41,438 bases of DNA, taken from Geopsychrobacter sp. GTDB lineage: Bacteria; Desulfobacterota; Desulfuromonadia; Desulfuromonadales; Geopsychrobacteraceae. The position numbers were made by a program, and so were the translations under genes. The stretch's first letter is position 1; every line of letters begins with the position of its first letter. Positions 37,145 to 37,326 of the stretch are shown in pieces. A model generated the notes under the pieces. The model ran no database searches. It was given only the letters and a program-made list of their open reading frames with translations, and was not told where the DNA came from. The DNA lies in assembly GCA_012974425.1 (NCBI GenBank), contig JAAXQE010000128.1, forward strand, positions 1 to 41,438, in the 5' to 3' direction.

Positions 37145-37161
37145 TTGGCACGGTCGCTGCA
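37145..37161 (+). promoter_or_regulatory. Sigma-54 (RpoN) -24/-12 promoter of glnB-amtB
   Basis: TTGGCACGGTCGCTGCA matches the consensus YTGGCACG-N4-TTGCA with a single C-for-T change at the -12 element. The GG and GC dinucleotides have the correct spacing. The predicted transcript start is near 37172, about 155 nt before glnB. Nitrogen operons are classic RpoN targets. An enhancer-protein site upstream is not obvious to me. Confidence 0.8.
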
Positions 37162-37177
37162 AAATTGATATCTGTCT

Positions 37178-37230
37178 GCCGCAACTTAAAGCGGCGAGAT
37201 CAATCAACAAAACTGGAACAATGGCGTTCC
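37178..37230 (+). promoter_or_regulatory. Leader RNA stem-loops, candidate ANTAR antiterminator site
   Basis: Two hairpins lie in the 5' leader of the glnB mRNA. The first is GCCGC/GCGGC (37178-37182 with 37191-37195) with an 8-nt loop. The second is GGAAC/GTTCC (37215-37219 with 37226-37230) with the hexaloop AAUGGC, which has A at position 1 and G at position 4, the pattern bound by ANTAR-domain antiterminators. The intrinsic terminator at 37257 follows. In Geobacter sulfurreducens the ANTAR response regulator GnfR controls nitrogen genes in this way. The first hairpin does not fit the hexaloop rule, so the match is partial. Confidence 0.5.
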
Positions 37231-37256
37231 GAACCGATACGGACTTTGAGCAAAGG

Positions 37257-37294
37257 CGCTCTATCCCATTTTATGGGGTAGAGCGTTTTTTTTT
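37257..37294 (+). terminator. Leader terminator (attenuator) before glnB
   Basis: CGCTCTATCCC (37257-37267) pairs with GGGGTAGAGCG (37275-37285), one G-U pair, around a 7-nt loop. Nine T residues (37286-37294) follow directly. This strong intrinsic terminator lies after the sigma-54 promoter and 32 nt before the glnB start, so transcription must read through it for glnB to be expressed. That points to regulated antitermination. Confidence 0.8.
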
Positions 37295-37326
37295 GTTTCA
37301 GTAATCCCTGGAGAAGGAGACGCATG

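Follow-up and report, generated by a model that had tools for sequence, protein, structure and literature searches.

The window (the whole stretch of 41,438 nt analysed here) carries glnB, encoding the nitrogen regulatory protein P-II, followed by amtB, encoding an ammonium transporter, and these genes are preceded by a predicted sigma-54 promoter and a structured leader that ends in an intrinsic terminator (Table 1). The genome that carries the window, G000, amounts to 3.28 Mb in 327 contigs and is 99.8% complete. The predicted promoter, TTGGCAC-GGTCG-CTGCA, differs by one change from the sigma-54 consensus TGGCAC-N5-TTGC and conforms to GG-N10-GC, in agreement with the near-consensus -24/-12 element that the initial annotation had placed before glnB. 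Folding of the whole leader yields -49.4 kcal/mol (z -5.7 relative to shuffles, 0/200 as good), and the terminator is strongly structured on its own (z -6.1 relative to shuffles); the run of nine T before the glnB start, also annotated initially, is present at 37286-37294.

Table 1. Features of the glnB-amtB leader region and of two further leaders of the same genome. Coordinates are those of the window unless a contig is given.
Feature	Position	Strand	Basis and remarks
Candidate enhancer (activator) site CTTTTTTGTGCA	37082..37093	+	Tentative; lies 63 bp before the -24 element
Sigma-54 (-24/-12) promoter element TTGGCACGGTCGCTGCA	37145..37161	+	Consensus match; kept in orthologous leaders
5' leader hairpin, 8-nt loop	37174..37200 (about)	+	RNA folding; outside the ANTAR target
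P1 hexaloop hairpin GGAAC[AAUGGC]GUUCC	37215..37230	+	Sequence, folding, covariation; loop A1 and G4
Small hairpin CCG-AUA-CGG in the P1-P2 linker	37234..37242	+	Folding
P2 hexaloop hairpin GAGC[AAAGGC]GCUC, predicted antiterminator	37248..37261	+	Folding, covariation; loop A1 and G4
Intrinsic terminator	37252..37294	+	Stem 37252-37290 in scan, followed by the T run
glnB, nitrogen regulatory protein P-II	37324..37665	+	PF00543; start 37324 or 37327
amtB, ammonium transporter	37699..39000	+	PF00909, TIGR03644; ATG 37699 with ribosome-binding site; longest ORF from 37666
nifH leader	G000:C169 (L229), about 1146-1290	reverse complement	Sigma-54 element, dual hexaloop, terminator
nifV-like (homocitrate synthase) leader	G000:C77:9570-9734 (L242, L267)	-	Sigma-54 element, compact dual-hexaloop attenuator

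Published ANTAR targets consist of two hexaloops with A1 and G4, the second of them embedded in a terminator (PMC3369931, PMC8934654). The hexaloop AAUGGC proposed initially does occur, in P1, and both hairpins described before the terminator are there. However, these two hairpins do not make up the target: the first has an 8-nt loop and is therefore not a hexaloop, which rules out the pair, and the real P2 sits in the arm of the terminator, so that the ANTAR target comprises P1 and P2 without the first hairpin. P2 emerges when the RNA is folded without the 3' half of the terminator, and its loop and 3' arm constitute the first part of the terminator 5' arm (37248-37261 versus 37252-37290); sharing these bases, P2 and the terminator are mutually exclusive. 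The arrangement of paired A1/G4 hexaloops, spaced by 28-40 nt and with the second overlapped by a terminator, is found once on the two strands of the window, at the glnB leader, and in none of 20 dinucleotide shuffles of the window.

We gathered orthologous leaders of glnB at two levels, the family and the order. Of the 30 from the family, 24 carry the P2 hexaloop and one more carries P1 only. A search model built on 13 leaders gave matches in 53 of the 88 genomes searched in the order (E up to 0.05, so that the weakest may be chance), and all 29 loci retrieved with this model (L106-L134) are glnB-amtB leaders. In an alignment of 45 leaders (42 distinct), the P1 and P2 partners can pair in 97.6% of cells, against 29-62% for slid partners, and double changes affect six of the ten pairs (46 cells), a level reached in 0/500 shuffles. 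This alignment was fitted to the model; a 13-sequence MAFFT alignment, which was not, displays the same covariation trend, more weakly. The closing pair of the hairpins is C-G in 36/36 and 42/42 cases. In the P2 loop, A1 and G4 are kept in 45/45 leaders, whereas any of the four bases occurs at position 3; where the P1 loop is six bases long, A1 is found in 36/39 and G4 in 39/39. P2 is the more conserved element, and in some genera (g4, g5 and g10) it is retained with a P1 that is degenerate or absent. Conservation in orthologous leaders, which the initial annotation had proposed to examine, is thus borne out for the hexaloops, in sequence and in pairing.

G000 encodes exactly one ANTAR domain protein (E 5.6e-20, genome domain search), answering the call for a search of the genome for such a regulator. 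It is a receiver-ANTAR protein of 187 aa, whose gene directly follows that of a PAS-HisKA-HATPase kinase on contig C62, a different contig from that of glnB-amtB. Its alignments are near full-length both with EutV (6WSH/6WW6; E 3.7e-30) and with the putative antiterminator of solved structure 1S8N (E 2.9e-46). Across the order, an ANTAR gene occurs in 72 of the 88 genomes, a set that includes several fragmented assemblies, and the leader motif is present in 52 of these 72 versus one of the 16 that lack the gene (Fisher one-sided p = 1.2e-6, kinship ignored). In 22 of the 29 retrieved loci the glnB leader is immediately preceded by a gene for a homologue of the kinase, and the ANTAR gene is 3' of amtB in eight other loci.

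These data bear on whether any protein is needed to read the leader. The hairpins could form a passive attenuator or insulator bound by no protein, glnB-amtB being regulated by sigma-54 activation alone. Initiation control alone can indeed serve these genes, given that sigma-54 elements are also found in glnB leaders that have no hexaloops: four genomes of the family without an ANTAR gene (G013, G024, G028, G033) have short leaders of this kind, and G016 has an ANTAR gene yet a short glnB leader without hexaloops. For a passive terminator, however, the compensatory changes, the invariant A1 and G4 and the free third loop position would be needless, and neither would the motif be expected to track the ANTAR gene across genomes, with regulator genes adjoining the leader. 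We therefore regard this possibility as very unlikely, and antitermination by the ANTAR protein remains the preferred reading.

The sole motif-positive genome in which no ANTAR gene was detected, either by the Pfam model or by a search with the ANTAR protein of G000, is G029, which is 99% complete. Its leader (L109, G029:C120:1789-1844) is nevertheless a well-formed ANTAR target. This exception could suggest that the leader is a riboswitch, or an attenuator responsive to another protein, whose likeness to ANTAR hexaloops is convergent. No Rfam riboswitch family matches the window leader, and at gathering threshold no family at all does; the leaders hold little conserved sequence outside the hexaloops and the terminator from which a ligand pocket could be built, and the motif strongly co-occurs with the ANTAR gene, all of which makes such an attenuator extremely unlikely. 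With ANTAR control retained as the preferred explanation, the G029 discrepancy would reflect either a gap in the assembly or decay of the system. The broader model R2 adds a weak match (24 bits) in G052, which likewise lacks an ANTAR gene.

Below the gathering threshold, the leader does match RF00625 (P11), which aligns over 37134-37287 at E 4.7e-5, with 30.2 bits versus a gathering score of 70, the model lining up with the leader at both the CAAAGGCG loop and the sigma-54 element. With a score below threshold the leader is not to be filed as a P11 member, although it would work like NalA, which we take to be the same RNA as P11. NalA, the leader of Pseudomonas nirBD, combines a sigma-54/NtrC promoter with antitermination by NasT (PMC12830290). 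The likeness is thus the coupling, in a single leader, of sigma-54 initiation with ANTAR-type antitermination (both predicted on the glnB side); in contrast, NalA precedes a nitrite reductase operon and responds to nitrate sensing by NasS/NasT, where the present leader precedes glnB-amtB and would be served by a histidine kinase and a receiver protein.

P11 has been catalogued as a Pseudomonas sRNA, and the terminated leader could itself act as a small regulatory RNA, perhaps sequestering the ANTAR protein via the P1 hexaloop. P1 does remain paired in the terminated fold, and sequestration of EutV by the hexaloop-bearing EutX/rli55 RNAs provides a precedent (PMC8934654). Against this, P2 overlaps the terminator just upstream of glnB, the correct order for attenuation, and the better conserved element is P2 rather than P1. 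A small-RNA role would in any case supplement antitermination, not replace it, and as a substitute for antitermination we find it highly improbable.

In its anatomy, the leader resembles EutV/EutW targets. As in Enterococcus faecalis, there are dual A1/G4 hexaloops with P2 overlapping the terminator, and a kinase paired with a receiver-ANTAR protein; the differences are the genes controlled, those for ethanolamine use in E. faecalis, and the linker between the hairpins, 5-12 nt there and 16-17 nt at glnB, where part of it can fold as a small hairpin. In E. faecalis eutP, a linker of 3 or 14 nt is detrimental (PMC3369931). The eut range does not define ANTAR targets in general, since the general model of Ramesh et al. 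2012 permits a variable linker (PMC3369931). Shortening of the linker by structure, as a rule across leaders, was not significant relative to shuffles (p = 0.064). In the window leader, the small linker hairpin stands in place of an outer stem that often encloses P1 outside the window's genus (L044, L053, L057, L121, L133 and other order-level leaders). This outer stem pairs the linker with the stretch 5' of P1 (combined p 2.7e-5 versus shuffles, kinship ignored).

Within G000, a loose pattern of two hexaloops and a T run retrieved three matches, the glnB, nifH and nifV-like leaders, and the reversed pattern retrieved none. In the nifH leader (gene identified by TIGR01287, 465 bits), TTGGCACAACCCCTGCT is followed by UCAC[AAUGCU]GUGA and by GGC[AAAGAU]GCC within the terminator; with this terminator included, folding gives z -5.2. 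The nifV-like leader has the same order: a sigma-54 element GGCACGGCTTTTGC, ACCGGC[AAGGUC]GCCGGU, GGC[AAUGUU]GCC, then a terminator. The loop-to-loop spacing is 32 nt at glnB, 25 nt at nifH and 19 nt at the nifV-like gene. Both the long linker at glnB and the much shorter spacings of the other two leaders are slightly out of the ordinary. The paralogous glnB on contig C179 matched neither the leader model nor the pattern. Four further model matches (C2:3861, C322:12968, C59:10656, C133:16777) were rejected as targets and taken as chance, because they score low and the motif is followed by no terminator bearing a T run. In relatives, the pattern also occurs before nifH, nifB-like, nifV-like and transporter genes, names that except for nifH were read from translations. 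Two leaders (L237 in G063 and L239 in G061) carry an ANTAR-like dual hexaloop and terminator before TRAP-transporter-like genes; in G063, the contig of this leader also bears an ANTAR gene that belongs to another subtype, with about 38% identity to that of G000.

A candidate for the initiation side of the switch lies upstream of two of these leaders. CTTTTTTGTGCA is identical in the window and at G000:C77:9723-9734, upstream of the nifV-like sigma-54 leader; of the three sigma-54/ANTAR leaders of the genome, two are thus preceded by this 12-mer at a distance of some 63-65 bp. We tentatively propose it as an activator site for the sigma-54 leaders. In relatives, CTTTTTTGTGCA is sometimes paired with an inverted copy, TGCACAAAAAA. 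As a marker of the regulon genome-wide, CTTTTTTGTNCA was discarded, giving five matches versus three for the control, which is weak alone.

Taken together, the glnB-amtB leader is very probably a two-layer nitrogen switch, in which a sigma-54 promoter is followed by a terminator that an ANTAR protein cancels. The two-layer nitrogen control proposed initially thus appears largely right as far as sequence can tell, the regulator having been found and the hexaloops being conserved and covarying. Transcription would be initiated at 37145-37161 by sigma-54 RNA polymerase, given an active enhancer-binding activator. In the default state, the terminator (37252-37294) would fold and transcription would halt before glnB. 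The kinase encoded on contig C62 would activate its partner, the sole ANTAR protein of the genome, a dimer of which would bind the P1 hexaloop and then P2. Bound P2 would stay folded and, held on bases of the terminator 5' arm, would prevent the terminator from forming, allowing glnB-amtB to be transcribed. ANTAR binding, antitermination and the identity of the sigma-54 activator are what we infer from these sequences; the activating signal is probably nitrogen limitation.

This design has antecedents. Reportedly, Ueki and Lovley found in 2010 that Geobacter sulfurreducens combines sigma-54 (RpoN) activation by GnfK/GnfM with antitermination by GnfL/GnfR. The pair described here is likened to GnfL/GnfR by gene arrangement, a kinase gene adjoining a receiver-ANTAR gene, rather than by GnfR sequence, and by its targets, sigma-54-promoted nitrogen genes, nif genes included, with a terminator between promoter and gene (here glnB, nifH and nifV-like). 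Ramesh et al. 2012 predicted ANTAR targets before P-II and ammonium transporter genes, as well as ANTAR-controlled nitrogenase units, or a regulon, in Pelobacter carbinolicus (PMC3369931). Motif and gene classes match those of the glnB-amtB leader; this specific leader is absent from the main text. A two-layer design was thus already known for nitrogen genes, from NalA, the Gnf system and the targets of Ramesh et al., and the present leader is a well-supported fresh example of it.

Across the order, nitrogen genes (glnB-amtB, nifH and nifV, with nifB-like and transporter genes in relatives) might generally be gated by a sigma-54 promoter followed by an ANTAR attenuator, a single ANTAR protein serving leaders of all three loop spacings; the proposal, to which we give somewhat less than even chances, includes positive feedback in some genera, where the ANTAR gene lies directly behind amtB and could thus be under its own antitermination. 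At the glnB-amtB locus itself, the leader offers a clean and testable case in which a P-II sensor and an ammonium channel, beyond the nif genes, would be gated at both initiation and elongation. Given that the genome encodes only one ANTAR protein and that few targets were found, it would also be a compact model for the limits of hexaloop spacing and for the reasons why ANTAR control is so common among nitrogen genes.
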